A stretch of 38,606 nucleotides of DNA, taken from Bryobacteraceae bacterium. Its GTDB lineage: Bacteria; Acidobacteriota; Terriglobia; Bryobacterales; Bryobacteraceae. Shown here piece by piece: positions 6,044 through 34,024 of this stretch; positions within the stretch are counted from its first letter, which is position 1, and every line of letters begins with the position of its first letter. Where the stretch lies: contig JANWVO010000031.1 in the NCBI GenBank assembly GCA_025056865.1, forward strand, positions 1 to 38,606, read 5' to 3'. The position numbers and the translations under genes were made by a program. Below the pieces are notes generated by a model. It saw nothing but the letters and a program-made list of their open reading frames with translations. It searched no databases and was not told the DNA's origin.

Positions 6044-8271
6044 CAGAAGAGGCGGAGGGTGTAGGAGATGCGGATGCCGCGGCCCATTTCCGGGGCGATG
6101 TCCTTCACGAAGCTCAAGTGGTTTCGATAGAGGCGGTTGCCGAGGTTGAACGTGGTGACGTTGAACGTGTGCAGCGTGTGGCCGCGCGTGAGGGTATAGG
6201 AGGCGTTGACATGCGCCACGGCGTAGCCCGCCGTGGGCGTCTCGTTCGGGGCCACCTGCCATTGCCGGTTTACGAGGAGCAGCTCGGGGCGGACACTGAG
6301 GCCCTTCCAGAACCAGTCCAGGCCGAGGCGGCCGCGCGCCGGGGGGATGCGGGGGAGGTTCCAGCGGGAACCCGAGGCGAGGTTGGCGTCGACATAGTCG
6401 AATCCGGCCAGCAGCCACAGCGGGCCGCGCACACGTGCCTGGAGGCGCGCCTCGGCGCCGGCGAAGCGGGAGTCGGCCTGGGAGAAGAGGTAAACGGGCA
6501 GCCCATGATCCACCTCTCCGGTGGGCAGGTAGTAGACGAAATCGTGCATCTGGTAGCGGAACAGGTTCGCCTCGGCGCGGAGATTGCGTCCCTGGTGGCG
6601 GAGCGAGATTTCGACGCCGTCGCCGGCTTCCCGCACGAGGTCCGGGTTGCCAATCTCGTAGGCCAGGTTGCCTGGATGGGGTCCATAGTTGTAAAGCTCT
6701 TCGAGGGCGGGCGCGCGGTAGGAACGGATGTAGTTGGCGACGAGGGCGCCGCTGCGCCAGAGGGGAATCCACGCCCCGGCGGAGGCGGAGGCACCAGAGA
6801 AACGGCGCTGGCGCAGCCCTTCCGGAGAGTAGCGGTTCGTCTCCCAGCGGCCGCCGAACTGGAGCCGCAGGCGCTCCCAGCTCAACTCCTCGAGGCCGAA
6901 CAGGGCGAATGCATTCTGGGCGACAGGGGGCGCAAGCGCCTCCGCGCCGCGCGTTTCGTAGTCGCGATGCAGGCCCCACAGGCCGAAGCGGCCTGACCAT
7001 GGGCCGCGGCGGCGCTGGTCGAACATGCCGGAGTAGACGAGCTGTTTGTTGAAGAACTGCGTCCCGGTTACGCCGTCTTCGATTTCGCGGTGCGTGTAGT
7101 CGGCGTAGCCGAGGTCGAACTGGAACTGTTCGAAGAGGCCAAGGCGCTTGAGGGCGCCGTTGAAGCGGGCATTGGTGCGGCGCATGTCCAGAACGGGCAG
7201 CTCGTGGCCATGGCCGTGTGCGTCCATGTCCTCATGACCGTGATCCTCTTCGCCGTGGGCGTGGCCTCCGGGCACGCCGTAGGTCATGTCGATGCGGTGC
7301 ACGACGGCGTTCCAGCTCAGCCTGTCGCCGTAGCGGCCGATGCCCGCCTTGGCATTGGTCATCTCGGTGAAGGAGTTCGCAATCCGGCCAGCGGGGGTGC
7401 TGTAGTCGCCGGTGCGCATGCCGCCGCCGCTCCCATAGAAGAGCCAGTCTCCCTGGCCATACTCGAATGAGCCGCTGCCGCCGCCCTGCGCGTTGGCCGT
7501 GCCGCCGGTTCCAGTCAGCGCCATGTGCAGACCCTGGTGCGGATGCTGGTTGATGACGTGGTGATCGGTGAGCACGTTGACGACGCCGCCGATGGCGTTG
7601 GAGCCATAGAGCAACGTGGCAGGGCCTTTGACGACTTCGACGCGCTCCAGATTCATGGGATCCACCGGTTCGCCGTGGTCGCCGGACTGCGAGGAGATGG
7701 TTCCGGTGCGCATGCCGTCCTGGAGGACGAGCACGCGGTCGCCGTCGAAGCCGCGGATGACCGGACGCGTGGAGCCCGGGCCGTAGCTTCTTTTCGCGAC
7801 ACCCGCTTCGTCGCCAAGCAGATCGCCCAGAGAGGAGGAGGCGCTGCGGCCCGTCAACTGATAACCGTCGAGCGAAACGACGCTGAGAAAAGCGTCGGCA
7901 GCCGACTCTTCGCGGCCGGAAGCGGTGACCGTGAGGGACTCCTTGAGCGGGCTGATCCGCAGTGCAAAGTCCACCGTGGCAGTTTCGCCCGCCTGCACAC
8001 GCACCGTCTTCTTCTCATCCGCAAGCGCGTGGACGTGGGCCAGCAGGGTGTATTCGCCCGGCGCGAGCCCCTCGAAACGGTACCGGCCAAGATCGTCGCT
8101 TTCGACGATGCGGCCGCCCGGAGACAGCAGAACGGAGGCGCCATGAAGCGGCTCTCCGTTGCCAGCGAAGGTCACGGTTCCCTGGATGATGGCACCGCTG
8201 GGGGCCTGGCCGAGGACGGCCGGGCAGAAGAGGAGCGTGATGGCCGTAGCCAAATGAAAGCGGATTCTCAT
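6043..8271 (-). CDS. TonB-dependent outer-membrane receptor, ZnuD-like with His-rich loop
   Basis: A 742-residue outer-membrane receptor, probably for a metal ion. It has a signal peptide (MRIRFHLATA... cut near AVLGQ), an N-terminal carboxypeptidase-regulatory-like beta-sandwich (about 25-110), a plug domain containing RPVIRGFDGDRVLVLQDG and VEVVKGPATLLYGSNAIGG, and a C-terminal barrel ending in a terminal Phe (ISYTLRLF). An extracellular-loop candidate at about 332-356 is packed with His, Asp and Glu (GGHAHGEEDHGHEDMDAHGHGHE is split here as GGHAHGEEDHG / HEDMDAHGHGHE). Such loops occur in the zinc receptor ZnuD, so zinc is the likely ligand, with nickel or another metal possible. ATG 8271 is preferred over 8277 because GAGGG is then spaced 6 nt. 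No zinc ABC transporter or Zur site was seen next to it. Confidence 0.88.
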   Translation of the reverse strand: MRIRFHLATAITLLFCPAVLGQAPSGAIIQGTVTFAGNGEPLHGASVLLSPGGRIVESDDLGRYRFEGLAPGEYTLLAHVHALADEKKTVRVQAGETATVDFALRISPLKESLTVTASGREESAADAFLSVVSLDGYQLTGRSASSSLGDLLGDEAGVAKRSYGPGSTRPVIRGFDGDRVLVLQDGMRTGTISSQSGDHGEPVDPMNLERVEVVKGPATLLYGSNAIGGVVNVLTDHHVINQHPHQGLHMALTGTGGTANAQGGGSGSFEYGQGDWLFYGSGGGMRTGDYSTPAGRIANSFTEMTNAKAGIGRYGDRLSWNAVVHRIDMTYGVPGGHAHGEEDHGHEDMDAHGHGHELPVLDMRRTNARFNGALKRLGLFEQFQFDLGYADYTHREIEDGVTGTQFFNKQLVYSGMFDQRRRGPWSGRFGLWGLHRDYETRGAEALAPPVAQNAFALFGLEELSWERLRLQFGGRWETNRYSPEGLRQRRFSGASASAGAWIPLWRSGALVANYIRSYRAPALEELYNYGPHPGNLAYEIGNPDLVREAGDGVEISLRHQGRNLRAEANLFRYQMHDFVYYLPTGEVDHGLPVYLFSQADSRFAGAEARLQARVRGPLWLLAGFDYVDANLASGSRWNLPRIPPARGRLGLDWFWKGLSVRPELLLVNRQWQVAPNETPTAGYAVAHVNASYTLTRGHTLHTFNVTTFNLGNRLYRNHLSFVKDIAPEMGRGIRISYTLRLF

Positions 8272-8447
8272 TCCCATCCCTCTTTCATTCTGGAGGCGGG
8301 GGCGTGGCGGTCCTTTCTCCGGCGAGCAGACGGGACGAAAAAGGAGATAAGCGGGCCGCCTGCGGGGCCGAGCGGGACTTTTGGCGCTGAAAAAAACCGC
8401 CCCGGATGGCGCGCGTGCGATCCTGAGGAGAAGAAGAGGGCAAAGGG

Positions 8448-8906: not shown

Positions 8907-11600
8907 GTGCGTGGCAGCAGAGCAGTACGCGCTTCCACCGCCCGGCCCGGTGCTGGCCGGGCCGCCCTGTGGGTAATGGCCATCCTGTGCGGCCTGTTGC
9001 CCGCGCCTGCGCAGCCAAGGTCCCGGCAGGAGCCGGCGCGGGTGCTGATCCTGCACTCCTACGATCCCTCCTACAACTGGTCTGTCGAAGTCACGCTGGG
9101 GCTGCGGTCCGTGCTGGAGGCTCTGCCCCGGGAACTCGATGTCTGGATCGAGTACCTGAACGTGCGGAAGCTGGGAAAGCAGGAGGCGTGGCGATGGATG
9201 GACCAGACGCTCGAGCAGCGCCACGCCGCCCGCCACTTCGACCTCGTTCTCGCGTGCGATGACGCTGCTGTCGAGTACATGCTCGAAGGCAGCCCGGCGG
9301 CCCTGCGCAAGACCCCGGTTGTTTTCTGCGGCGTTGGACGCCGGGATCTGATCGCGCGCCTGCCCCGCGACCGGTTTACGGGAGTGGAAGAGCTGTCCAC
9401 GGCCTCCGACTTCCTGGACGAAGTGTTGAAGATGCTGCCCGCTCCACGGCGGGTGGTTGTAGTCACCGACAACTCGCCCACGGGCGCGGAGCACCGTCAG
9501 TTCTACGGCGAGATTCAGAAGCAGAGGCCGCGGCTCGCTTTCGAGTTTCTGGATGGCAGTGCGCTGGAGGTGGAGCAGATTCTGGACCGGCTGCGGCGGC
9601 TCGATTCGAGCTCGCTGGTCGTGCTGACCCACTTCACCCGGGACTGCAACGGCCGCTATGTGAGCCCGCGGTGGATGGCGGCGGAAGTGGCGCGCGTGAG
9701 CGCGGCGCCGGTTGTCAGCCCGCACGTCCGGATCCTGGGCCAGGGGATTCTGGCGGGCAACACCAGTGCGGGATTCGCGCACGGCGAGATGGCAGGCCGC
9801 CTGGCGATTGAGGTGCTGGAAGGCGTGCGTCCGGCTGATATCCCTCTGCGCCGCCACGGCAACATCCGCCTGATTGTGGACGACTCGGTGGCGGCGCGAT
9901 GGGACATCCCGCGCTCGGCGATCTCGCCGGAAGCCGAGATTGTCCATCCGGCGGGTGGATGGCGGGCGCTGTCGAGCGCCGACCGGCGTCTGCTGGCGGC
10001 GGGCGTCGTCCTTGTCGGACTTCAGATGCTGCTGATCGCCGGACTGCTGGTGACGATCTGGCAGCGCCGCAGGGCCGAACGCGAGCTGAAGGCCAGCCGC
10101 GAGATGCTGGACCGGGCGCAGCGCATCGCACGGATTGGCCTGTGGACGCGGGACCCGCGCACGGAGAGGCTGCACTGGTCCGACGAAGTGTGCCGGATGT
10201 TCGGGCTGGACGATTCCGCACAGCGTCCCACGATGGAGCAGTTTCTCGCCTTTATCCACCCGGAAGACCGGCTGCGGGTGGAGGCGATCATCCGCGCCAG
10301 CGACCGGCAGCGCCGCAGCCGGGTCATCGAATTCCGCATTGTGCGCCCGGACGGGGCCGTGCGCCATGTGCGCAGCGTGGGCGAATGGACGTCGGGACCC
10401 AATGGCGAGCCGCTGGTTGCGGGCATGGTGCAGGACATCACCGAGACGAAGCACCTCGAGGAGATGCTGGCCCAGGTGCAGCGGGTGGAAGCGCTGGGGA
10501 CGCTGGCGGGCGGGGTGGCGCACGACTTCAACAACCTGCTGACGGTGATCAACGGCTACGGGCAGATGCTGGCCGCGGCGCTGCCGCCGGACGATACGCG
10601 GCTGCCCTATGTGCGCGAGATCCAGCGCGCGGGCGAGCGGGCCTCCGAGCTGACGCGCCAGCTTCTCGCCTTCAGCCGCAAGCAGATCCTTTCGCCGCGC
10701 CTGCTGGACCTCAACCAGACGATCGAGGAGAACCTTGGCCTCCTGAAGCCGCTGCTTGGCGACTCGATTGCTTTGCGTCTGGAGCTTTCGCCGGGGCTGA
10801 GCCCGATCCACGCCGACCCGGCGCAGCTCGGGCAGGTTCTGATCAATCTGGCGGCCAATGCGCGCGATGCCATGCCTGCGGGTGGTACGCTGACGATCCG
10901 TACTGCTGTCGACGTGATGCAGGAGTTCTCCCGCTCTGGCGAGGAGAGCATTCTGCCCGGCCGCTATGTGGAGCTGACGGTTTCGGACACCGGCTGCGGG
11001 ATGGACGAAGAAACGCGGCGGCGCGCCTTCGAGCCGTTTTTCACGACCAAGCCGATCGGCAAGGGGACGGGGCTCGGGCTGGCCTCGGTCTATGGAATCG
11101 TGCGCCAGAGCGGCGGCTACATCACGGTGGCCAGCCGGCCCGGGGAAGGCGCAACTTTCCGCATCCTGTTCCCGGCGGCCGAGGGGGCGATTGCGGCTGC
11201 GGGGCGGGACATGGCCGCGGCGTCCGAGAGAGTCTCCGGCAGGATCCTGGTGGTAGACGACGAGCCGCAACTTGGCGAGATCATGCGGCTGGCGCTGCGG
11301 CAGGCAGGATACGAGGTCGTTGTGGCGGCCAGCGGGACGGAGGCCCTGTCGATGGCGCAGAAGGCGCTGCCGCAGTGGGCGCCGGACCTGCTGCTGACCG
11401 AGCTGGATCTGCCCGGCCTGGGCGGCAAGAAGCTGGCCGCGCGTCTCCGCGCCTCTGTTCCGGGGCTGCGCGTGCTTTACCTGAGCCACCCCGACAAGGT
11501 GGAAGGCCCGTGCGCGGACGGGCTGGACGCGCCGGTGCTGGAGAAGCCTTTCACGCCCGCGGCGCTGGTGGCGGCGGTGCGGCAGGCGCTGGCCGGCTGA
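8907..11600 (+). CDS. Hybrid sensor histidine kinase with periplasmic ABC-substrate-binding-like sensor
   Basis: A 897-residue membrane signalling protein. Order: basic N-terminus and signal/first membrane segment (about 18-36); a periplasmic sensor resembling the ABC-transporter substrate-binding fold, from [14 protein letters not shown] to about 345; a second membrane segment (about 362-386); a PAS domain (about 395-510); HisKA with the phospho-acceptor in [10 protein letters not shown] (His539); HATPase with [16 protein letters not shown] and GTGLGL; and a C-terminal receiver (about 779-897). In the receiver the usual phospho-acceptor Asp reads Glu ([10 protein letters not shown], Glu832), while the acidic pair VVDDEP and the Lys of LEKPF are kept. 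The GTG at 8907 has only a weak ribosome site; a later ATG at 8976 would remove the basic part of the signal. No cognate regulator lies adjacent. Confidence 0.9.
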
Positions 11601-20772: not shown

Positions 20773-21123
20773 TTAATCAAAGCCCAGCGGATCGGGCGGG
20801 CGGATCGGACGGATCTCCCGATCGAATCCCAGCGGATCAGGCGGGCGGATCGGACGGATCTCCCGATCGAAACCCAGCGGATCGGGCGGGCGGATCGGAC
20901 GGATCTCCCGATCGAAACCCAGCGGATCGGGCGGGCGGATCGGACGGATCTCCCGATCGAAACCCAGCGGATCCGGTGGGCGGATCGGACGGATCTCCCG
21001 ATCGAAACCCAGCGGGTTCGACGAGACAATGGCCACCATGTTGTCGGACGGGAGCACGGCAGCCGAAGCTGCGGCCCCTGCCACAACACAAAGAAGGGCA
21101 ACCAACAGAGTTGTTGTCCTCAT
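20773..21123 (-). CDS. Small exported protein made of five 15-residue tandem repeats
   Basis: A 116-residue protein I do not recognise. A clear signal peptide (MRTTTLLVALLCVVAGAAAS, cleavage near ASA-A) is followed by a 20-residue linker (VLPSDNMVAIVSSN) and then five copies of PLGFDREIRPIRPPD, ending with PLGFD. The copies are identical in sequence; the 45-bp DNA units (about 20783-21013) differ at only a few positions. ATG 21123 is chosen because GGAAGG lies 8 nt upstream; the only earlier in-frame start is a GTG. The repeat is rich in Arg and Pro with regular Asp/Glu. No Cys is present in the mature part. It may be a surface or matrix repeat protein, or a precursor cut into repeated peptides; both are guesses. 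A terminator follows, and a 7-bp dyad (GAAGAAC-A-GTTCTTC, 21158-21172) precedes it. Confidence 0.75.
   Translation of the reverse strand: MRTTTLLVALLCVVAGAAASAAVLPSDNMVAIVSSNPLGFDREIRPIRPPDPLGFDREIRPIRPPDPLGFDREIRPIRPPDPLGFDREIRPIRPPDPLGFDREIRPIRPPDPLGFD
20783..21013. repeat. 45-bp tandem repeat, about five copies
   Basis: In-frame tandem array inside the small exported protein gene. The unit on the plus strand starts CCCAGCGGATCGGGCGGGCG and has a 45-bp period. Copies differ by single bases (for example CAGG, CGGG or CCGGT in the same place), so the array is recently expanded or kept uniform by recombination. Confidence 0.9.
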
Positions 21124-21584
21124 CACATGCACCTTCCGAGAAACCCGGCCCTCAAGAGAAGAACAGTTCTTCCCCCGAGCCGAGCCTAAGATCTACACCT
21201 GAGGCTAAGGCTAAGGGTCCCCAATCAGGGCTAGGATATTTCCGATGCCAAAGACCGGGCCTTATTCCTGGATCCGGTCCGGGATTTGACCGGGAGAATT
21301 TGTGAAATCCGATTCGAAGGATGGCTGACCCGCAAGAAATTCCGGAACCAGAATCCGGGAGGAGAACAACCGGCTGTGCAGGGTGCGGGGCTTTCGGGGC
21401 GGCCTTCGGGCGGGAAAGGAGCGTTTTCAGATCGCGCCAGAGAAGGACGGCCAGCACGGGCAACAGTCCTTGGCGGGGCGCGCTTTATGACACCTTCTGC
21501 GCCGGGATCGCGGTGGAAATTTCCCGGTAGATTTGCGGAAATCCAGCCTGGCGGGGGGAGCTGGGGCAGGAGCCGTGCAGGAAA
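21124..21584. other. Intergenic region, no gene supported
   Basis: The stretch between the repeat-protein gene and the ExeA-like gene holds short open frames without codon-use or family support. Visible structure: the dyad GAAGAAC-A-GTTCTTC (21158-21172), about 35 nt upstream of the repeat-protein ATG, and a short direct repetition GAGGCTAAGGCTAAGG (near 21203). It probably carries the promoter of the repeat-protein gene, but no clear -10/-35 was found. Confidence 0.4.
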
Positions 21585-22481
21585 TCAGGGGGAAGTCTCG
21601 GTAGGAAGCAGCGGTGGCTGTTCCTCGCCGGCATGGCGTGGATAGCGCAGCCGCCCCGGCATGCCCGGCCATTCCAGCCGCATGTCCAGGCAGACTTCAT
21701 CCAGCATGTCCACCGTGGTCTGCCGGCATTCGAGCGCGAACGCGGTGAGAAGCAGGTTGTCGCAAAGCGCGTTGATGACGCGGGGAATGCCCTGGCTCCT
21801 CAGGTGGATTTCCCGAAGCACGTCTGGCGGGAAGACCTTCTGCTCCGGCATGCCGGCGCGGGCAAGCCGCGTCTGGATGTACTCTGCCGTCTCCTCCGCG
21901 TTCAAGGGCCGAAGCATGCAGCGCAGCACGATCCGCTGCTTGAGCTGCCTCAGGCCGGGGGATTCCAGCTTCCGGTCGAGTTCCGGCTGGCCGGAGAGGA
22001 TGATCTGAAGAAGCTTGCCAGACTTGGGATTTTCCAGATTGGTAAGGAGCCGGATTTCCTCCAGCACGTCCTGCTCCAGATTCTGGGCTTCGTCGACAAT
22101 GAGCACCGTCGTACGTCCGGCCGATGCCTCTTCCAGCAGCAGATGGTTCAATGCGAACAGCACCTCGGTCTTCGACCTGCGGTCGCACCGCAGGTCGAGA
22201 TCGTAGGCGATCATCTCGAAAAACTGGTCCGCATTGATCCTCGAATTGAAGATAAAGGCGAATTCAATGCCCTGCGCATCCAGCTCGTCGCGGAGGCATT
22301 CGAGCAGCGTGGTCTTGCCGGTGCCGACCTCGCCGGTCAGAACGATGAAGCCCTTTCGCCCGTGGACTCCGTAAATCAGGTTCGCCAGCGCCTCTTCGTG
22401 CTGCGGACTCCTGTAAAGGAACGCCGGATCGGGGCTGAGATTGAACGGACTTTCGCGGAATCCGAAGAAGGCGTTGTACAT
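21585..22481 (-). CDS. ExeA/GspA-like AAA+ ATPase
   Basis: A 298-residue cytoplasmic ATPase. The N-terminus MYNAFFGFRESPFNLSPDP is the hallmark of the ExeA/GspA family, followed by Walker A GEVGTGKTT (50-58), Walker B VLIVDEAQ (126-133) and a sensor-like region IILSGQPEL, with IPRVINALCDNLLLTAF toward the C-terminus. Family members drive assembly of secretion systems or are found beside exopolysaccharide/exosortase loci; the peptidoglycan-binding C-terminal half of ExeA is missing here. ATG 22481 has an AGGAGG site 4-5 nt upstream. It lies 121 nt after csm5 on the same strand but has its own candidate extended -10, so a functional link to the CRISPR operon is not established. Confidence 0.85.
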   Translation of the reverse strand: MYNAFFGFRESPFNLSPDPAFLYRSPQHEEALANLIYGVHGRKGFIVLTGEVGTGKTTLLECLRDELDAQGIEFAFIFNSRINADQFFEMIAYDLDLRCDRRSKTEVLFALNHLLLEEASAGRTTVLIVDEAQNLEQDVLEEIRLLTNLENPKSGKLLQIILSGQPELDRKLESPGLRQLKQRIVLRCMLRPLNAEETAEYIQTRLARAGMPEQKVFPPDVLREIHLRSQGIPRVINALCDNLLLTAFALECRQTTVDMLDEVCLDMRLEWPGMPGRLRYPRHAGEEQPPLLPTETSP

Positions 22482-22602: not shown

Positions 22603-23784
22603 CTAACGGCCGCCTTCCGGTCCGGCGATGGCGAATTCCACCCAGCCGGGAAGCGCGGCCGGCTGGTCGTTCAGGAACACCACCTGGCGCGTCTTGGGGA
22701 AGGGAAGTCCGGTACGGATCTGCTCGCGGTAGACGGGCAGCAGGCGAAGAAGCTCGTGATAGGGCCCGCTGGCCGTGTCGAGGCTGGCGGATTTCGACAG
22801 CAGGCCGGTGCCCCAGCCGATACAAAGCAGGCAGGCATTGTTCCCGGCGCGGATCTGCTCGAGCCGCTGCTCGAGCTGGGCCATGGAGTCGGCCACGGCC
22901 CGGAGCCCGGTGGCCTCGGCGTAGCGGCGGTGGAGCGCGAGGAGCTGGGCGGCGGCACGGTTGGCGGCCGCCATGGAGCGCTCCCAGTCGCACGGCTCGC
23001 CGTTCCACCGCAGGGCCTTGCGGATCCGCTCCTGCCTGGCCGCGCTGGCCAGTCCCAATGTTCCCTCAAAGACGGTGCCCGGCATGGCCATTTCCGCAAA
23101 GTGCGGCGTGGAGTCGCCTGGCCTGCGGCTCTCGACGGCGCCTCGGGGGCTCATCTTCCAGCCCAATTCCAGGCGGCCGCCGCGCTGCACGAGCGTCGCA
23201 GTGCGCAGAAGGCAGATGCGCGTCCGGCCCCCCGGCGGCAGGGGATCGGAGTCGGAGATCATGAGGCTCCGCAGCCGGTCTGTGGAGGAAGGGCCGAGCG
23301 CTGCCTCCTCGAGCGGGCCGGCCGGGCGGCGCGGGGCCCTCTCGGCCCTCTGTAGGACGTCGAGCGCCTGCTTCCAGTGGTGCGCGGAGAGGGAGTCGAG
23401 CAGGACGGCGCGGCGGAGGGCGCCCTTGATGACGCTGCCGGGAACATAGATGGCGCCGCCGGCGGTGGCGGCGAAGGTCGGGATGAAGAGGTGTTCGGCC
23501 GAGGTGCGCGCGTAGTAGGCGGCCAGCGACGGATGCTCGAAGGGGATGCGCCGGCTGGCGTAATTCTGCGCGTATCCGCCCCAGGAGGCGAAGTCGAGCT
23601 TCTCGGCGCGGCGGATCTGGTTGAGGTAGGTCTCCAGCCGCGGACCACGCGCCAGCAGGCGGAAGATGCGCCGCTGGTCGAGAACGTTCACCTGGTCCTT
23701 CCAGACCATGTAGTCGATCGGCGCCAGCTTCTGGCCGTCGCCGGCCAGGAGCGGGGTCAACACGGTGAGTCGGTACCTGGTCAT
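22603..23784 (-). CDS. csm5: Type III-A CRISPR RAMP protein Csm5
   Basis: A 393-residue RAMP-superfamily subunit that in type III-A complexes caps the crRNA 3' side. Evidence: the N-terminal strand YRLTVLTPLLAGDG with the GDG turn, the RAMP motif IYVPGSVIKGALRRAVL (near residue 120-140), and a late glycine-rich loop LCIGWGTGLLSKSA, all typical of Csm5. The length is normal for the family. The ATG at 23784 overlaps the csm4 stop (ATGA). It is the last gene of the cas10-csm2-csm3-csm4-csm5 operon. Assignment rests on motif pattern and gene order. Confidence 0.87.
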   Translation of the reverse strand: MTRYRLTVLTPLLAGDGQKLAPIDYMVWKDQVNVLDQRRIFRLLARGPRLETYLNQIRRAEKLDFASWGGYAQNYASRRIPFEHPSLAAYYARTSAEHLFIPTFAATAGGAIYVPGSVIKGALRRAVLLDSLSAHHWKQALDVLQRAERAPRRPAGPLEEAALGPSSTDRLRSLMISDSDPLPPGGRTRICLLRTATLVQRGGRLELGWKMSPRGAVESRRPGDSTPHFAEMAMPGTVFEGTLGLASAARQERIRKALRWNGEPCDWERSMAAANRAAAQLLALHRRYAEATGLRAVADSMAQLEQRLEQIRAGNNACLLCIGWGTGLLSKSASLDTASGPYHELLRLLPVYREQIRTGLPFPKTRQVVFLNDQPAALPGWVEFAIAGPEGGR

Positions 23785-24800
23785 GCGTTCCCCGGCCATG
23801 GAATCGGGATTGCGACGGCATGCCCCGCCCGCCAGACCGGGTGGGGGCAGCCTTCCGGCGCGACGTTCTGCACCGTTCCGCGGGGCGGCGCGGCGCTGAC
23901 GACGACGGAACCTTCGGCGAGGGCGCGGGAGATGCGCTTGGCCAGTCCGCGGCCCTCGCGGCTGCCGATGCGTCCGCCGCGCTTGAGAATCTCGTAATGG
24001 CCCTCGTCCCAGCGGACCGGATCCGCGCCGGAAGGGATCATCAGAGACAGCAGCCACCAGGCGCTGCCGGAACCCGGCACGCCTTTCGGGCCGAACAGGA
24101 TCTCGGAGAGCAGCCCTGCCTGGAAGTCCACGCTGCGCGCGCGGCCGAAGCCCCGCGAACGCATGCCGCCGATGCCGCTGTCGCCGAGCAGGCGGAAGGC
24201 GGCCTGAAGGCGCGGAGCCCAGACGGCGTAGGCCGTCGGCGTGGCGAACTGCGCGGCGCACCAGAGGCCGGAGGCAGGGGCGAACTGCACGCACCCGGCC
24301 ACGTAGGGCATCACCTGGCCGCCGGTCATGCGGTCCACGGCGGCCATCGAGCGGAGCAGAAAACGGAACGGGCCGGTGGCCGAGCGGCTGCCGGCGGGGA
24401 TCAGGCAGGCGCTGAAGCCGTCCACTTCCCAGGCTTCCTCGTCGAACTTCTCTCCGCGCAGCAGCGAGCCCACCAGCCTGGAGGGTACGAGCCGGGCGCC
24501 TTTCCACCGGCCTTTCGAAGTGGCGCCTTCCGGCGGCCACAATCCCTTCGGCGGGGGAACGTAGAGCAGGTTCCGCTGCCAGGGGAAGGCGGAGGTGAAG
24601 CGGACGGAGGGCTCCCGCAGGGGATCCGCGGTAGCGGCCAGCCATTCGTCCATCCAGCCGAGCTGCTCCAGGGCGAGCGTGACCGCCGAGTAGACGGCGT
24701 CGCTGTGCAGCACGGCGGCCGCCTCGCCGAGGGACCCGGACTCTGGTCCGAGCCGCCAGGGCGTGGACGGGCGGATGCGGACGAGCAGCGCAGGGTTCAT
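23781..24800 (-). CDS. csm4: Type III-A CRISPR RAMP protein Csm4
   Basis: A 339-residue RAMP subunit expected to bind the crRNA 5' tag and contact Cas10. The N-terminal half has the Csm4-type motif VLHSDAVYSAVTLALEQLG (about 34-52); the glycine-rich RAMP loop SGIGGMRSRGFGRA is near residue 220. Further upstream reading is open, but the ATG at 24800 sits 14 nt after the csm3 stop with GAGG about 9 nt before it, so it is the supported start. The stop overlaps the csm5 start, indicating translational coupling. Confidence 0.88.
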   Translation of the reverse strand: MNPALLVRIRPSTPWRLGPESGSLGEAAAVLHSDAVYSAVTLALEQLGWMDEWLAATADPLREPSVRFTSAFPWQRNLLYVPPPKGLWPPEGATSKGRWKGARLVPSRLVGSLLRGEKFDEEAWEVDGFSACLIPAGSRSATGPFRFLLRSMAAVDRMTGGQVMPYVAGCVQFAPASGLWCAAQFATPTAYAVWAPRLQAAFRLLGDSGIGGMRSRGFGRARSVDFQAGLLSEILFGPKGVPGSGSAWWLLSLMIPSGADPVRWDEGHYEILKRGGRIGSREGRGLAKRISRALAEGSVVVSAAPPRGTVQNVAPEGCPHPVWRAGHAVAIPIPWPGNA

Positions 24801-24814
24801 TGCTTGCGCCTCGC

Positions 24815-25648
24815 TCAGACGAGCTTCTCCAGGAACTCGGGGCCAGCGGCGGCCTGAAGATCGGCGGTGGACTCGGCCTTTTCGATCAGCGTCTGTTCGC
24901 CTTCCGTGCCCGCGTAATAGCCCCGGTTGCGCCAGGCGACGCGCCATTTGGCGAAGCGGACGCGGCCGCTGCCGCGCGAACCGCCGCCGCCGAGGGCGTC
25001 GTCCTCCAGCAGCCGCAGGCCCTGGAGGAAGGCCGCCACGAGCTCGCGGTCTTCAGGGCAGAGGATGTCGAGCACGAAACGGACGCGGAAGCGGGCTCCG
25101 GCGGGCACGCGCTCCAGGGTGCGCGCGCTGGACTGCGCAGTGATGCGGTCGATGGCGTTCTCGCTCTTCACCTCGGTGAGCTCGTCGTCGAGGTTCTCGC
25201 GCATCTGGGGCGTGATCGATTCCAGATCGAGCGGCGCATCGTAGACGGTGAGCCGCGCCGGCGTCGCCGCCGAGGGCTCCAGCGCGTCGCCGGCCACGCG
25301 CTCCATGCGTCCGGGATTGCGGCCGAACAGCAGGCAGATTTCGTCGCCCGGATCGTCGCTCTGGTGGATGCGCACCTCCTGGCCGCGGCGGCGGGACAGA
25401 TAGACGAGATCCTCGGGGCCGACGAGGCCGGCGGCCTGTTCCAGCAGGCTGCGGATGCGCCCGCGCAGGCTGCTGCCGGGCACATAAGGCCGGCCGAAGG
25501 CGTCCTTCACCACCGGATTGTCGGCGCCGCCAAGGTCGAGCGAGCCCTTGCCGGCGCCGATGTGGAGGCCGGTTTCGCAGATCAGCTCTCCGTCAAACAG
25601 CAGCTTGCCGATCAGGCCGAGCTTGGTGGTCGCGGTGTGTGAACTCAT
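24815..25648 (-). CDS. csm3: Type III-A CRISPR RAMP nuclease Csm3
   Basis: A 277-residue backbone subunit; several copies line the crRNA and cut target RNA every 6 nt. Motifs: ETGLHIGAG, then LGGADNPVVKD in which Asp43 lines up with the catalytic Asp33 of Streptococcus thermophilus Csm3 (known from that protein), PYVPGSSLRGRIRSLLE, the region KSENAIDRITAQSSARTLER, and the glycine loop LGGGGSRGSGRV. The slicing residue is therefore kept, so target-RNA cleavage is expected. The C-terminus is about 50 residues longer than in small Csm3 proteins. ATG 25648 has GGAG 6 nt upstream. Confidence 0.93.
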   Translation of the reverse strand: MSSHTATTKLGLIGKLLFDGELICETGLHIGAGKGSLDLGGADNPVVKDAFGRPYVPGSSLRGRIRSLLEQAAGLVGPEDLVYLSRRRGQEVRIHQSDDPGDEICLLFGRNPGRMERVAGDALEPSAATPARLTVYDAPLDLESITPQMRENLDDELTEVKSENAIDRITAQSSARTLERVPAGARFRVRFVLDILCPEDRELVAAFLQGLRLLEDDALGGGGSRGSGRVRFAKWRVAWRNRGYYAGTEGEQTLIEKAESTADLQAAAGPEFLEKLV

Positions 25649-25672: not shown

Positions 25673-26404
25673 TTATTCGTTGTAGGCGACGATCGCCTCG
25701 AACAGGTCGCGGAAGCGCTCATAGCCGCGGGCGTCGTTCTTCCGCGTCACCTGGAGCAGAAGCTTCTCCAGCGGGTCGAGGCTGCGCAACTGATGGCGCG
25801 CAATGGTGTAGGCCAGCCGCGCGCGCAGCATCACGAAGGCGTGCTGCCGCTCCGGCTCCTGCGTGCGGCAGGCGCGGCGCACCGCGCTGAACAGCCGCCG
25901 CAACTGGCTGCGCGTGCCGGAGTCCATGTCGCGCATGCGGGCGACGATGGCGTGCGCCTGGTTGTCCAGATAAAGGCTGTCGGCGATCAGCTTCTCGAGG
26001 TCGATTTCAATCGGACCCTCGGGGCCGCGGCCGCGCTCGGCGCGGGCGCCCTCCCGCGCCGGGCCCTGCGTCCGGGCGCGGTCGTTCGTCTTCGCGCCGC
26101 CCTGCCCTTTGCCCCGTTCAGCCTGCGCGGCCCGCTGCGCGGCGCGGGCGTTCCTCGGCTCCTGCGCCGATCTTGGCGCGGCGGGACGTGCCGCTGGCGC
26201 AGGCGGTTGCGCTGGGGCTTCGGGCTCCGCCGGCGGCTCCAGGGCCGCCGCGGGTTCCAGCTCCGGCTCTCGGGGCGGCTCCGGCAACGCCGGTTCAGCG
26301 GCCGCGGCCTCTGTGGGAGGGGCTTCCGCCGCGGGCGTCTCCACGGCCTGCGTCTCGGCCGTCTGCGCTTCCTGCGGGGTCTGTTGAGGCTCGAATTCGT
26401 TCAT
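25673..26404 (-). CDS. csm2: Type III-A small subunit Csm2 with long low-complexity N-terminal extension
   Basis: A 243-residue protein, about 110 residues longer than usual Csm2. The C-terminal core (131-243) matches Csm2: DMDSGTRSQLRRLFSAVRRA, then MLRARLAYTIARHQLR, and the closing FRDLFEAIVAYNE; in type III-A complexes this subunit forms the minor filament along the target RNA. The first 70 residues are Pro, Ala and Glu repeats, and residues 71-130 are rich in Arg, Ala, Gly and Gln, so the extension is acidic then basic and looks disordered. ATG 26404 lies 3 nt after the cas10 stop with GAGGTGG about 8 nt upstream; no later start has a comparable site, so the extension is probably translated. 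Confidence 0.82.
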   Translation of the reverse strand: MNEFEPQQTPQEAQTAETQAVETPAAEAPPTEAAAAEPALPEPPREPELEPAAALEPPAEPEAPAQPPAPAARPAAPRSAQEPRNARAAQRAAQAERGKGQGGAKTNDRARTQGPAREGARAERGRGPEGPIEIDLEKLIADSLYLDNQAHAIVARMRDMDSGTRSQLRRLFSAVRRACRTQEPERQHAFVMLRARLAYTIARHQLRSLDPLEKLLLQVTRKNDARGYERFRDLFEAIVAYNE

Positions 26405-26407
26405 CGG

Positions 26408-27805
26408 CTAATCCACCTCTTCCGTCATACGCGCCCATTCCAGCGCCACCCGCCCGGAGGGCTTCAGTTTCAATTGCGCCTGCCCGCGGGTGAGAAACGC
26501 CGCGAGCACCGCCTGGCGGGCCTTTTCAAATTCGCGGTGGCGCTCCGGGCCATCGAGCACGCGGTTCAGCCGGCGGTGCAGCCGCCAAGGCCGCTGCTGC
26601 GTCTCCAGCAGGCGCCGCGAGCTGCGCGCGGGCAGCACGCGATCCGTCTCGCGGTAGAAGGCGCCGAGCTCGCCCAGGAACTGCGGCGAGCAGCCGAAGC
26701 GGTCCACCATCCGCACCATCACGTCCTTCAGCTCGGCCGCCTCGGCCACCTGCTTCCAGTCGAGCACCTTGCCGAAGACCGCAATCGAGTCCCTGCCCGT
26801 GCTCTTGGCGGCCTCCATCTGCCGCCCGGCCTCCCGGTAAACCACCGCCGGCTCGAACTCCGGGTAAGGCGCCAGCGCGATGCCCATCGACAGCGTCTTG
26901 CCTTCCACTCCCGGAAATTCCTTCAGGAATTCCTCCACCGAGCGGCGGAAGACGCGCTCGATCGAGCGCGCGAAAGGCAGCAGCGCGTCCCAGCTCCCGG
27001 CAAGGGCGAATTCATCGCCGCCGGTGTACAGCACCGTCACCTTGTCGCGGAACTCTTCCTGTCCGCACAGCACCTGCACTTCGCCGGCGAAGAACTGCTT
27101 GTAGAAGACCGAGAGCTGGATGTACTCCTCGACCGATTCGGCCTTGTTGAGCCGCGCCTGAAACTGATCCACGTCGCCGCGCAGGATGCCCCATGCCTTG
27201 CGCCCGCGCGACCGCGCCGCCAGCTCTTCCACGCTGGCGGGCCATCCGCCCGGCATCTGGGCGAAGTGCGTCGCCAGCCAGTGCGCTTCGCCTTCCCGGC
27301 GCAGCATGCCGGGCGAGTCCGGATCCCAGACAGCGGCAGCAGAATCCGGCAAGCCGAGGAACAGATCTTCCAAGAAGGAGTCGTCGCCGGCTTCGTCGTA
27401 AGGCTCGAAGAGCCCGTCCGGCTCCAGCGCATTCAGCCCGCGCCACTTGCGGAAGCCCGCATCCAGGCGCTTGCGGATATCGCTCCACGCGCCGAGATTC
27501 TCCGTGCTCGACCAGGCGAGCCGGAGATCATGGCCGGAGAACGCGGCCAGCCGGCGCGTGGCATCGACGAGGAATTCGTTAGCCTGCGCCAGGCTCTCCC
27601 CGGGCAGCACCGCGAGGAACTGCCCGCCGCCGCAGGAGCCGAGCAGCTCCGGCGCAAGGCCCAGCCGCTCCAGCAGCGCCCGCGGCAGCGCTTCCGTCAG
27701 AAGGGAGACATAAAGGCAACGGCCGGCGAGCGCGGCAAAGCCGCCCCGCGCGCTGTGGACGAACGGCTCGATCCCCAGCAGCTTCCCCTGCAAAAAGACT
27801 TGCAC
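26408..27805 (-). CDS. cas10: Cas10/Csm1, short form without HD domain, GGDEF palm
   Basis: Large subunit of the type III complex, 465 residues against roughly 750 for usual Csm1. It starts directly in Palm1 (VFLQGKLLGIEPFVHSARGG; LYVSLLTEALPRALLERLGL) and has GSCGGGQFLAVLP. The N-terminal HD nuclease domain is absent, and no CxxC pairs of the zinc ribbon are found between 120 and 200. Palm2 shows RGDVDQF (Asp211, Asp213) and YTGGDEF (262-266) in place of GGDD, then LSMGIALAPY. DNA cleavage by HD is therefore not expected; cyclic oligoadenylate synthesis is uncertain because the second Asp is Glu. GTG 27805 follows GAGGT at 8 nt. It is the first gene of the operon. Confidence 0.92.
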   Translation of the reverse strand: MQVFLQGKLLGIEPFVHSARGGFAALAGRCLYVSLLTEALPRALLERLGLAPELLGSCGGGQFLAVLPGESLAQANEFLVDATRRLAAFSGHDLRLAWSSTENLGAWSDIRKRLDAGFRKWRGLNALEPDGLFEPYDEAGDDSFLEDLFLGLPDSAAAVWDPDSPGMLRREGEAHWLATHFAQMPGGWPASVEELAARSRGRKAWGILRGDVDQFQARLNKAESVEEYIQLSVFYKQFFAGEVQVLCGQEEFRDKVTVLYTGGDEFALAGSWDALLPFARSIERVFRRSVEEFLKEFPGVEGKTLSMGIALAPYPEFEPAVVYREAGRQMEAAKSTGRDSIAVFGKVLDWKQVAEAAELKDVMVRMVDRFGCSPQFLGELGAFYRETDRVLPARSSRRLLETQQRPWRLHRRLNRVLDGPERHREFEKARQAVLAAFLTRGQAQLKLKPSGRVALEWARMTEEVD

Positions 27806-27837: not shown

Positions 27838-27846
27838 AATCTAACA
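27838..27846 (-). promoter_or_regulatory. Candidate extended -10 promoter of the cas10-csm operon
   Basis: The minus strand reads TGTTAGATT, an extended -10-like element 32 nt upstream of the cas10 GTG. It lies in a 220-nt gap after the HlyD-type gene. The hexamer matches TATAAT at four positions and no -35 is clear. Confidence 0.3.
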
Positions 27847-32679: not shown

Positions 32680-32768
32680 GGCGAAGTGGCGGAACTGGCA
32701 GACGCACCAGACTCAAAATCTGGCGAACCTTTGGGTTCGTGTGGGTTCGACCCCCACCTTCGCCACCA
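32680..32768 (+). tRNA. tRNA-Leu (anticodon CAA)
   Basis: Complete class II tRNA. The acceptor GGCGAAG pairs with CTTCGCC at the 3' end, followed by discriminator A and an encoded CCA (32766-32768). The anticodon stem CCAGA/TCTGG closes loop CTCAAAA, giving anticodon CAA for UUG codons. The long variable arm (CGAACCTTTGGGTTCG) is that of Leu tRNAs. The T-arm reads GTGGGTTCGACCCCCAC. A tyrosine integrase gene faces this 3' end 144 nt away, so the tRNA is the likely attachment site. Confidence 0.97.
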
Positions 32769-32837
32769 TCCAAATTGATTTTATCTTCAAAAGCTTACAA
32801 GTTCCTCTCCGGTCGGTTGTACCAAGACCGTACCAAG
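32740..32837 (+). other. Putative attachment site: tRNA-Leu 3' end plus direct repeats
   Basis: The tRNA 3' half (T-arm to CCA, about 32740-32768) is the usual crossover region for tRNA-targeting integrases. Just beyond lie two direct copies of GTACCAAG (32819-32826 and 32830-32837), spaced 11 nt start to start, which may be integrase arm sites. The matching right attachment site was not found in the window, so the crossover point is inferred. Confidence 0.45.
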
Positions 32838-32911
32838 CGGCTGGCTCAGCAACTCCAAACCATCCGCTTCGCCCCCCGGGGCCACTGCGTTCTTCCCTCC
32901 CTCATCACCCC

Positions 32912-34024
32912 TCACTGGCCTCCCATCGCCACGACTCTCGGAGTCTCCCCCATGCCATCCCAGGCCCGCCGCACCGCCTCTTCCAGCCGCGCCTGCCGCT
33001 CCTGCACCCAGGGAGCGTAATGCTTCTCGGTGACCCGGATCGACTGGTGGCCGAGCAGCACGCTGACGACCTCGAGTGAGACCCCGTTTTCGAGCAGCCG
33101 CACCGCGAAGGTGTCGCGGAAACGGTGCGAATGGCCGTCCGGCAGCCCGGCCCGGAGGAAGATTTTCCGCAGCTTGTTGGACCAGACCCTCGCCGCGGCA
33201 TCCGGCCTGCTGGTGCCGGTCCAGAAGAAATGCCGGGCGCTTTCCGGCTCGAATGCCTCCAGGGCGCGCAACACCACCGGAGGCAGGGGCACCCAGACGG
33301 GGGTTCCCGTCTTCTGGGTGTAGAGAAAGAGCTTTCCATCGCGAATGCGGTCGCGCGCCAGAGTCACCGCGTCCATGATGCGCAGGCCGCTGTAGCGCAT
33401 CAGAAGCACGAGGGCCCGCAGCTGCGAGCCTTTGCCGGGGAAGCGGTCGCAGGCGGCCAGGATCCGCCGCATCTCCTCTTCGGAAAAAGGCAGCGTAGGA
33501 GTCAGGGAGACCCGCGGCGGCCTGATGCCGGCTGCAGGGCTCGAAGACAGCCATCCCTGCTCGACCGCGAATCGGAAGACGGTCTTCAGTCTCTCCAGCT
33601 GCTTGACCGCGGCCAGCCTCTGCCAGCGCCACGTCTCGCGGAAATCGCGAACCACGGCGGGCGTCCAGCGGGACAGCTGACGCGTCTCATGCTGCTCGGC
33701 GAAGCGGAGCATGTCGCGGAACAGGCCTTCGTACTTGCCGATTGTCGAAGGCTTGAGTTGCCTGGCGCGGGCATCGGCGAGAAACGCGCGGGCCAGATCC
33801 TCCACCCCGGGTTCGGGCCCGGCGGGCTGCGCGGTCAGTCCGCCAGCTTCGAGCATCCGGATCCTCGTTTGCGCCTCTTCCAGGCTGCGGGTGCGGAGTG
33901 AGCGGCGGAAGCGGCGTCCGTCCAGCTCTCCATCGCACCACAGCGGGCAGGAGCAGCGCAGGAAGGCCCGGCCTTTGGCTTTGTGACGGCAATCCGGTCG
34001 GTGGCGGCGGTACACGGTCAGCAT
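32912..34024 (-). CDS. Tyrosine recombinase/phage-type integrase
   Basis: A 370-residue site-specific recombinase. The catalytic set is complete: Arg215 (YSGLRIMD), Lys238 (TQKTGTPVW), His300/Arg303 (HSHRFRDTF), His326 (LLGHQSI) and the nucleophile Tyr336 (HYAPW). The SAM-like core-binding domain covers about 75-165. The N-terminus has a Cys/His cluster (Cys12, His14, Cys24, Cys26, Cys30) that may bind zinc. It points at the tRNA-Leu 3' end and is the integrase of the island that follows. ATG 34024 has GAGAGGA about 6 nt upstream. Confidence 0.95.
   Translation of the reverse strand: MLTVYRRHRPDCRHKAKGRAFLRCSCPLWCDGELDGRRFRRSLRTRSLEEAQTRIRMLEAGGLTAQPAGPEPGVEDLARAFLADARARQLKPSTIGKYEGLFRDMLRFAEQHETRQLSRWTPAVVRDFRETWRWQRLAAVKQLERLKTVFRFAVEQGWLSSSPAAGIRPPRVSLTPTLPFSEEEMRRILAACDRFPGKGSQLRALVLLMRYSGLRIMDAVTLARDRIRDGKLFLYTQKTGTPVWVPLPPVVLRALEAFEPESARHFFWTGTSRPDAAARVWSNKLRKIFLRAGLPDGHSHRFRDTFAVRLLENGVSLEVVSVLLGHQSIRVTEKHYAPWVQERQARLEEAVRRAWDGMGETPRVVAMGGQ

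Follow-up and report, generated by a model that had tools for sequence, protein, structure and literature searches.

A csm operon with a reduced Cas10

The window analyzed here, a 38,606-nucleotide stretch of a Bryobacteraceae genome (contig JANWVO010000031.1), carries on its minus strand an intact operon of the order cas10-csm2-csm3-csm4-csm5, with cas10 in the first position. The operon and its adjoining features are composed as follows.

26408..27805, minus strand: cas10/csm1, 465 residues, without HD and zinc-ribbon cysteines and with a GGDEF motif, assigned by family and profile searches
25673..26404, minus strand: csm2, a 131-residue low-complexity tail followed by a 112-residue core; TIGR01870 and PF03750 above cut-off
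24815..25648, minus strand: csm3, TIGR02582 at 186 bits against a cut-off of 90; candidate cutting aspartate D43 (GGADNPV)
23781..24800, minus strand: csm4, 339 residues, with an alternative earlier start; TIGR01903 at 117 bits against 55 (scored with the longer start)
22603..23784, minus strand: csm5, 393 residues; TIGR01899 at 61.9 bits against 38.3 (scored with the longer start)
21585..22481, minus strand: AAA ATPase of the XrtA/PEP-CTERM-associated kind; TIGR03015 at 299.5 bits, under the cut-off of 324.5
27838..27846, minus strand: promoter-like element TGTTAGATT, upstream of cas10

Csm2, Csm3, Csm4 and Csm5 all score above their NCBIfam cut-offs, which gives the operon the gene set of a type III-A effector complex. 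The cas10 gene starts at a GTG at position 27805 and its stop codon ends at 26408. Of 61 loci, 19 have the strict form of the promoter-like element, TG(N)1-2TAGA(A/T)T, upstream of cas10, and looser forms were seen by eye in others; a conserved RNA considered for this upstream region came down, in its common parts, to this element and a short leader. The ATPase gene adjoins the operon in 21 of the 38 loci that have room for it, and its membership of the system is uncertain.

Several other features were observed in the window and in related loci. A small protein built of 15-residue repeats (45-nt tandem repeats) is encoded at 20773-21132 on the minus strand, and loci from both the window's genus and genus group g47 have a match to it on the downstream side of the ATPase. 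At 32680-34024, a tRNA-Leu is followed by a reading frame that is integrase-like by eye, as in integrated elements. ARAGORN places a tRNA-Arg at 26189-26282 on the plus strand, opposite the csm2 coding sequence, a call that is probably false. In locus L044 of genome G019, five near-identical 70-bp tandem repeats lie directly upstream of cas10 (8021-8375).

Cas10 lacks the HD region, a loss supported across the family

According to the initial annotation, Cas10 begins directly in Palm1, has no HD motifs and no Cys pairs between the palms, carries GGDEF at residues 262-266 and has GK in Palm1, a description that family and profile searches confirm. The Csm1 family TIGR02578 matches the protein with an E-value of 2.5e-43 and 148.8 bits, short of the 170 required of a full-length Csm1, because the N-terminal part is missing. 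Palm2 is matched above cut-off by the Pfam family PF22335 (residues 206-342) and Palm1 just under it by Csm1_B (residues 23-88, 24.2 bits against 26.4), while no HD family of Pfam matches at E-values up to 0.1. In a profile made from 29 relatives, residues 6-85 and 184-404 correspond to residues 254-336 and 488-704, respectively, of a solved 757-residue Csm1, so that the window's protein has no counterpart to some 250 residues at the N-terminus of the solved protein, where HD lies in Csm1, or to part of the inter-palm region. An AlphaFold model from two sequences reached a pLDDT of 38 and was set aside. The same genome encodes another Cas10, which served as a control:

L077, 6488-8992 (G000:C12), minus strand: second, ordinary Csm1; csm3 lies nearby (L002), and the contig also has a Cas1 match

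This 834-residue protein is matched by TIGR02578 over its length with 536 bits, shows a weak HD match at residues 11-115 (19.3 bits, cut-off 22) and has both the CPAC/CGPC cysteines and GGDD.

The reduced architecture is common to the relatives of the window's Cas10. In a set of 63, from which nine duplicate loci had been dropped and in which the starts were picked nearest to that of the window, all proteins are 369-538 residues long and none has a CxxC, as is also the case for the window's own Cas10. Where the usual Palm1 motif GDxSGIQ has Asp, the window's protein has Lys; among the 61 relatives aligned at this position, Lys is found in 52, Gln, Arg or His in nine and Asp in none, and two more have a gap. 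The initial annotation had also raised the prospect of an HD domain that is frameshifted or separately encoded. No HD gene adjoins cas10, which is separated by 220 nt from a HlyD-type gene. In-frame room for more than 100 residues upstream of cas10 is available in three loci only (L016, L021, and L030), and these stretches appear, by eye, to be an Arg-rich out-of-frame translation. The loss of the DNA-cutting part, suspected at first for this one copy, is supported for the whole family. According to extracts of PMC11229360, which covers 1113 type III loci, 39% of these have a recognizable HD, a share that is 65% for III-A, so its absence alone does not make the operon an outlier; the same extracts discuss that nuclease-deficient, effector-less type III loci may signal in trans.

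GGDEF is a lineage variant of the cyclase motif

The cyclase motif of the window's Cas10 reads TGGDEFALAG, and the aspartates D211, D213, and D264 are all kept. The motif letters and the palm fold are those of diguanylate cyclases, an identity that was rejected for a gene standing in a csm operon, as the corresponding family scores are under cut-off (PF00990, 23.3 bits against 23.8; TIGR00254, 14.1 against 37.4). Among the 63 relatives, the fourth residue of the motif is Asp in 45, Glu in 15, and Gly in three. The five rows from the window's genus all have Glu at this position, as do seven of the nine of g47 and two of the four of g12, and it is also found in g14, so that Asp and Glu switch inside two genus groups (g12 and g47). 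GGDEF is therefore a lineage variant of the motif, and the proposal of the initial annotation that it marks a different signal, to be sought as a fixed GGDEF among relatives, is not supported.

The wider pattern GG-D-[DE] is matched by 54 of 62 relatives, and the eight that depart from it lie each on a separate branch; the third-position Asp is altered in six of these, and L068, which lies outside the tree, adds a further variant, GGNDF. All 63 relatives keep D213, and 59 of them keep D211. Retention of the motif in most Cas10s argues that signalling may still matter in most lineages. It would also speak, together with the three aspartates of the window's protein, for a signalling enzyme whose main output is an unusual nucleotide made by the GGDEF Cas10. 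We regard such an enzyme as improbable, given the Asp/Glu switches within genera, the eight separate departures from the motif while Csm3 stays intact, and the sub-threshold scores of the GGDEF families. The receptor side points the same way: among 120 family genomes, each at least 90% complete, Csx1-HEPN was found in none, Card1 in five, and Csm6-HEPN in none, the last being weak evidence as no control gave a signal.

The operon is near-universal and under purifying selection

CRISPR-Cas loci tend to be mobile and patchily distributed. Cas10 was matched (E ≤ 1e-8) in 184 of 200 Bryobacteraceae genomes (92%), some of the matches being fragments, and in 70 of 76 genera; among the more complete genomes, the count is 135 of 140. 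A search at the level of the order, over 150 genomes, gave 125 matches, all in Bryobacteraceae; of the genomes listed, 15 belong to two other families and had none. Across 297 genomes of the phylum, Csm3 exceeds 70% identity in only three, all within the family, and eight others lie at 40-46%; a search of IMG/VR with Csm3 found no virus-borne relatives. The five genes stand together in 39 of the 41 fetched loci L032-L072, the remaining two being cut by contig ends, and, the ATPase aside, the 14 further window genes that served as queries were found near the operon in few loci.

The pattern of descent was followed on a Cas10 tree built quickly from 62 rows, without L068 and with the motif columns removed. 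In this tree, whose support is mixed and which has seven long-branched rows, eight genera are represented by more than one row, and each of them forms one side of a branch. In 110 genomes, the identities of Cas10 and of AtpB to the window correlate with a Pearson coefficient of 0.87 and a Spearman coefficient of 0.38, most genomes lying near 50% for both. Five pairs, drawn from two genera, give dN/dS values of 0.04-0.16 (cas10) and 0.015-0.12 (csm3), with maxima of 0.30 for csm2 and 0.28 for csm5, the starts of csm4 and csm5 being uncurated. The operon is under purifying selection.

Conservation is uneven among the subunits. Averaged over pairs from 30 genera, sequence identity is 0.86 in the Csm2 core (29 rows), 0.74 in Csm3, 0.52 in Cas10, 0.50 in Csm4, and 0.53 in Csm5; five loci with odd gene models had been left out beforehand, and others were excluded for missing or cut genes. 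Measured from its motif to its end, the Csm2 core has the same length, 112 residues, in each of the 57 complete rows where this motif could be located; L026 is truncated by its contig, and L069 falls outside the pattern. A Csm2 profile compared with solved structures found no solved relative. Outside the core, the N-terminal tail of the window's Csm2 (residues 1-131; 25673-26404, minus strand) is of low complexity and rich in Pro, Ala, and Glu, and the tails of relatives contain at least two Arg-Gly pairs in 50 of 58 cases, reminiscent of RGG RNA-binding tails.

In Csm3, D43, which we take to be the counterpart of the catalytic Asp of known Csm3 proteins, is present in every one of the 57 relatives that can be read there, a 58th being masked at this position. 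It is retained also in five lineages in which D264 of Cas10 has changed (g36, g42, g55, g70, and g74). Csm3 is thus more tightly constrained than the cyclase, which favors over a new signal the suggestion of the initial annotation that the complex may act as an RNA slicer through Csm3.

These data bear directly on whether the operon is a decayed CRISPR remnant. Such a remnant would account for the absence of HD, zinc ribbon, array, and adaptation genes and for the few lineages with long Cas10 branches; the presence in 184 of 200 genomes, the dN/dS values well below 1 and the constant length of the Csm2 core make decay unlikely, and we consider it extremely improbable. The initial annotation had allowed that relatives with GGDD and HD might mark this copy as merely decayed: GGDD is indeed common among them, HD was seen in none, and dN/dS speaks against decay.

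Guide RNAs would come from elsewhere in the cell

No array, Cas6, or adaptation gene was found at the operon, in the window or in the fetched operon loci. Arrays were sought as exact 20-mers recurring at 45-110 nt. This finder flagged tandem repeats in several operon loci, of which L032, L044, L057, and L069 were inspected; the repeats in the window, L033-L037, and L066 were judged non-array by their period alone. A short repeat pair at 51 nt was noted in L093, and L075 and L076 lie by Cas1. One true array was flagged, in the window's own genome, where it adjoins a Cas6 of another clade:

L078, about 9458-9888 (G000:C23): CRISPR-like array with six repeat copies spaced 74-75 nt apart, of which the first are degenerate

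We propose that the operon is uncoupled from spacer acquisition, as no array or cas1 lies in the fetched loci.

Cas6 and Cas1 are both frequent in the family. Of the 200 genomes, 164 have a strong Cas6 match (<1e-30), often standing alone, and 172 have one at E ≤ 1e-10; Cas1 was found in 108. In tests that ignore kinship and draw on many draft genomes, Cas6 is associated with the operon (both in 156 genomes, operon only in 28, Cas6 only in eight, neither in eight; odds ratio 5.6, p 0.002) and not with Cas1 (odds ratio 1.06, p 1.0), and for operon and Cas1 the absence of a link is not clear-cut (odds ratio 2.8, p 0.07). Cas1 went undetected in 81 of the 184 operon carriers, of which 69 have a strong Cas6 and ten have no Cas6 match at all. 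Among the matches listed, Cas6 stands solely beside Cas1, by eye, only in G106, G136, and G173. Across 17 Cas6 neighbourhoods, no other gene family is common to more than six loci, and in 189 genomes of the phylum a single Cas6 match below 1e-60 lies outside the family (G376). The window's genus departs from this picture: none of its five genomes has a strong Cas6, and one of them, G126 (98% complete), keeps the operon with neither Cas6 nor Cas1 found. This loss of the core Cas6 implies that guides in the genus would come from other arrays or be matured by host RNases.

The core Cas6 clade is also found in type I loci. In 13 stretches (L133-L145), it has Cas1 on the same contig, and family searches typed three of them, L143 as I-A-like, L133 as I-B-like, and L134 as I-D-like. 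Nine of the 13 hold arrays of at least three copies, all with repeats ending in CCCC-loop-GAAGGGGAYTGAAA, and four have no such array; the type III locus L146 has a different repeat. The Cas6 and its repeat have seemingly been passed as a pair among these type I subtypes. Among 18 loci with an array or Cas1, 13 contain the strict form of this repeat end, with 203 matches in all; it has none in 71 loci of the operon (887 kb, overlaps counted twice) and none in 37 Cas6 loci (442 kb), where the handle alone occurs once, in L080.

The presence of this Cas6 clade in array-bearing type I loci makes borrowed guides plausible. The complex might then still be antiviral, as a permanent second-line effector that takes the crRNAs of type I and type III arrays through the shared Cas6, a possibility that we take seriously while holding it short of probable. 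Apart from the repeat ends shared by all nine arrays, it accords with the frequency of Cas1 in the family, with the array and the second type III locus of the window's own genome, and with a precedent of crRNA sharing given in extracts of PMC5576922, between III-B and I-F in Marinomonas. It sits less well with the 81 carriers lacking a detected Cas1, with the lack of any array near the operon, and with a presence of 92% and a strong conservation that are unlike those of patchy defence loci.

A presence in nearly all genomes, inheritance by descent, and almost unchanging Csm2 and Csm3 subunits speak for a housekeeping riboregulator, in which one or a few dedicated, fixed guides would act on host transcripts. 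The existence of carriers without Cas1 and the position of the core Cas6, mostly away from Cas1 by eye, agree with such a regulator; against it, no conserved guide gene was found near the operon or Cas6. A comparison of the flanks of 37 Cas6 loci returned the end of the gene itself and longer syntenic stretches, and Rfam gave one sub-threshold match in the window between 20000 and 31000 and one tRNA in seven loci. We rate the housekeeping regulator with its dedicated guide as rather unlikely, at odds similar to those of an immune role through borrowed guides.

A probable resident Csm complex of the Bryobacteraceae

We consider it on balance probable, by a modest degree, that the operon encodes a resident, vertically inherited Csm complex of the Bryobacteraceae, derived from type III-A, with no array beside it, supplied with guides made elsewhere and cutting RNA through Csm3. 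The antiviral explanation discussed above is this same reading with the guide source set as itinerant arrays. In the mechanism that we envisage, the complex would bind a guide RNA made elsewhere in the cell, from Cas6-processed arrays or as a stand-alone guide, Csm2 and Csm3 would form the filament, and matching RNA would be cut by Csm3. Cas10 would serve mainly as a structural cap, its DNA cutting lost. Nucleotide signalling would be optional: GGDEF probably still permits it, and several lineages would have dropped it. Guides in the window's genus may come from other arrays, such as that of L078 in the same genome, or be matured by host RNases. A near-permanent gene cluster of the family suggests that the complex is kept for a lasting job and is not a passing immune system. 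A fully domesticated RNA-silencing machine, in which fixed chromosomal guides would direct the cutting of host transcripts and the Arg-Gly-rich tail of Csm2 would gather RNA, across 70 genera, is a more doubtful extension that we put forward tentatively.

With type III-A (Csm) complexes, the operon shares the cas10-csm2-csm3-csm4-csm5 set, the Csm3 Asp, and the palm domains. It differs from them by the absence of HD and zinc-ribbon cysteines, the replaced Palm1 Asp, the lack of an array or adaptation genes beside it, and its near-universal presence in one family. As far as extracts of PMC12669027 describe them, subtypes III-G, III-H, and III-I resemble it in part, by a reduced Cas10 and lost signalling parts; their cyclase is inactivated or lost, whereas the window's Cas10 keeps D264 and is accompanied by a full csm2-5 set, which places the operon outside these subtypes. 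The main text of that paper contains no word beginning with Acidobact or Bryobacter. The nearest precedent for a lineage-wide III-A system with little acquisition is that of the Mycobacterium tuberculosis complex, for which non-immune roles have likewise been proposed (PMC13334790, in extract). That system keeps arrays, cas1, cas2, cas6, and csm6 in its locus and belongs to one species complex, against 70 genera here.

Published accounts of the family and the phylum touch on CRISPR in other ways. In the available parts of these papers, no CRISPR is reported in a Bryobacteraceae strain (PMC8759368), CRISPRs are counted over Acidobacteriota with no description of the Csm operon of the window (PMC11245096), and type III contigs are presented with Cas1/Cas2 and arrays, unlike the window's operon (PMC11742911). 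No description of a family-wide Csm operon was found in a search of titles and abstracts, the scope of which mostly excluded subscription papers.

With its presence in 92% of the genomes, no adjoining array, and two near-frozen subunits, the operon represents a natural experiment in how a CRISPR effector may turn into a permanent component of the cell. It offers a case for testing whether type III machines serve some lasting purpose besides adaptive immunity, and which of their activities are kept by selection.
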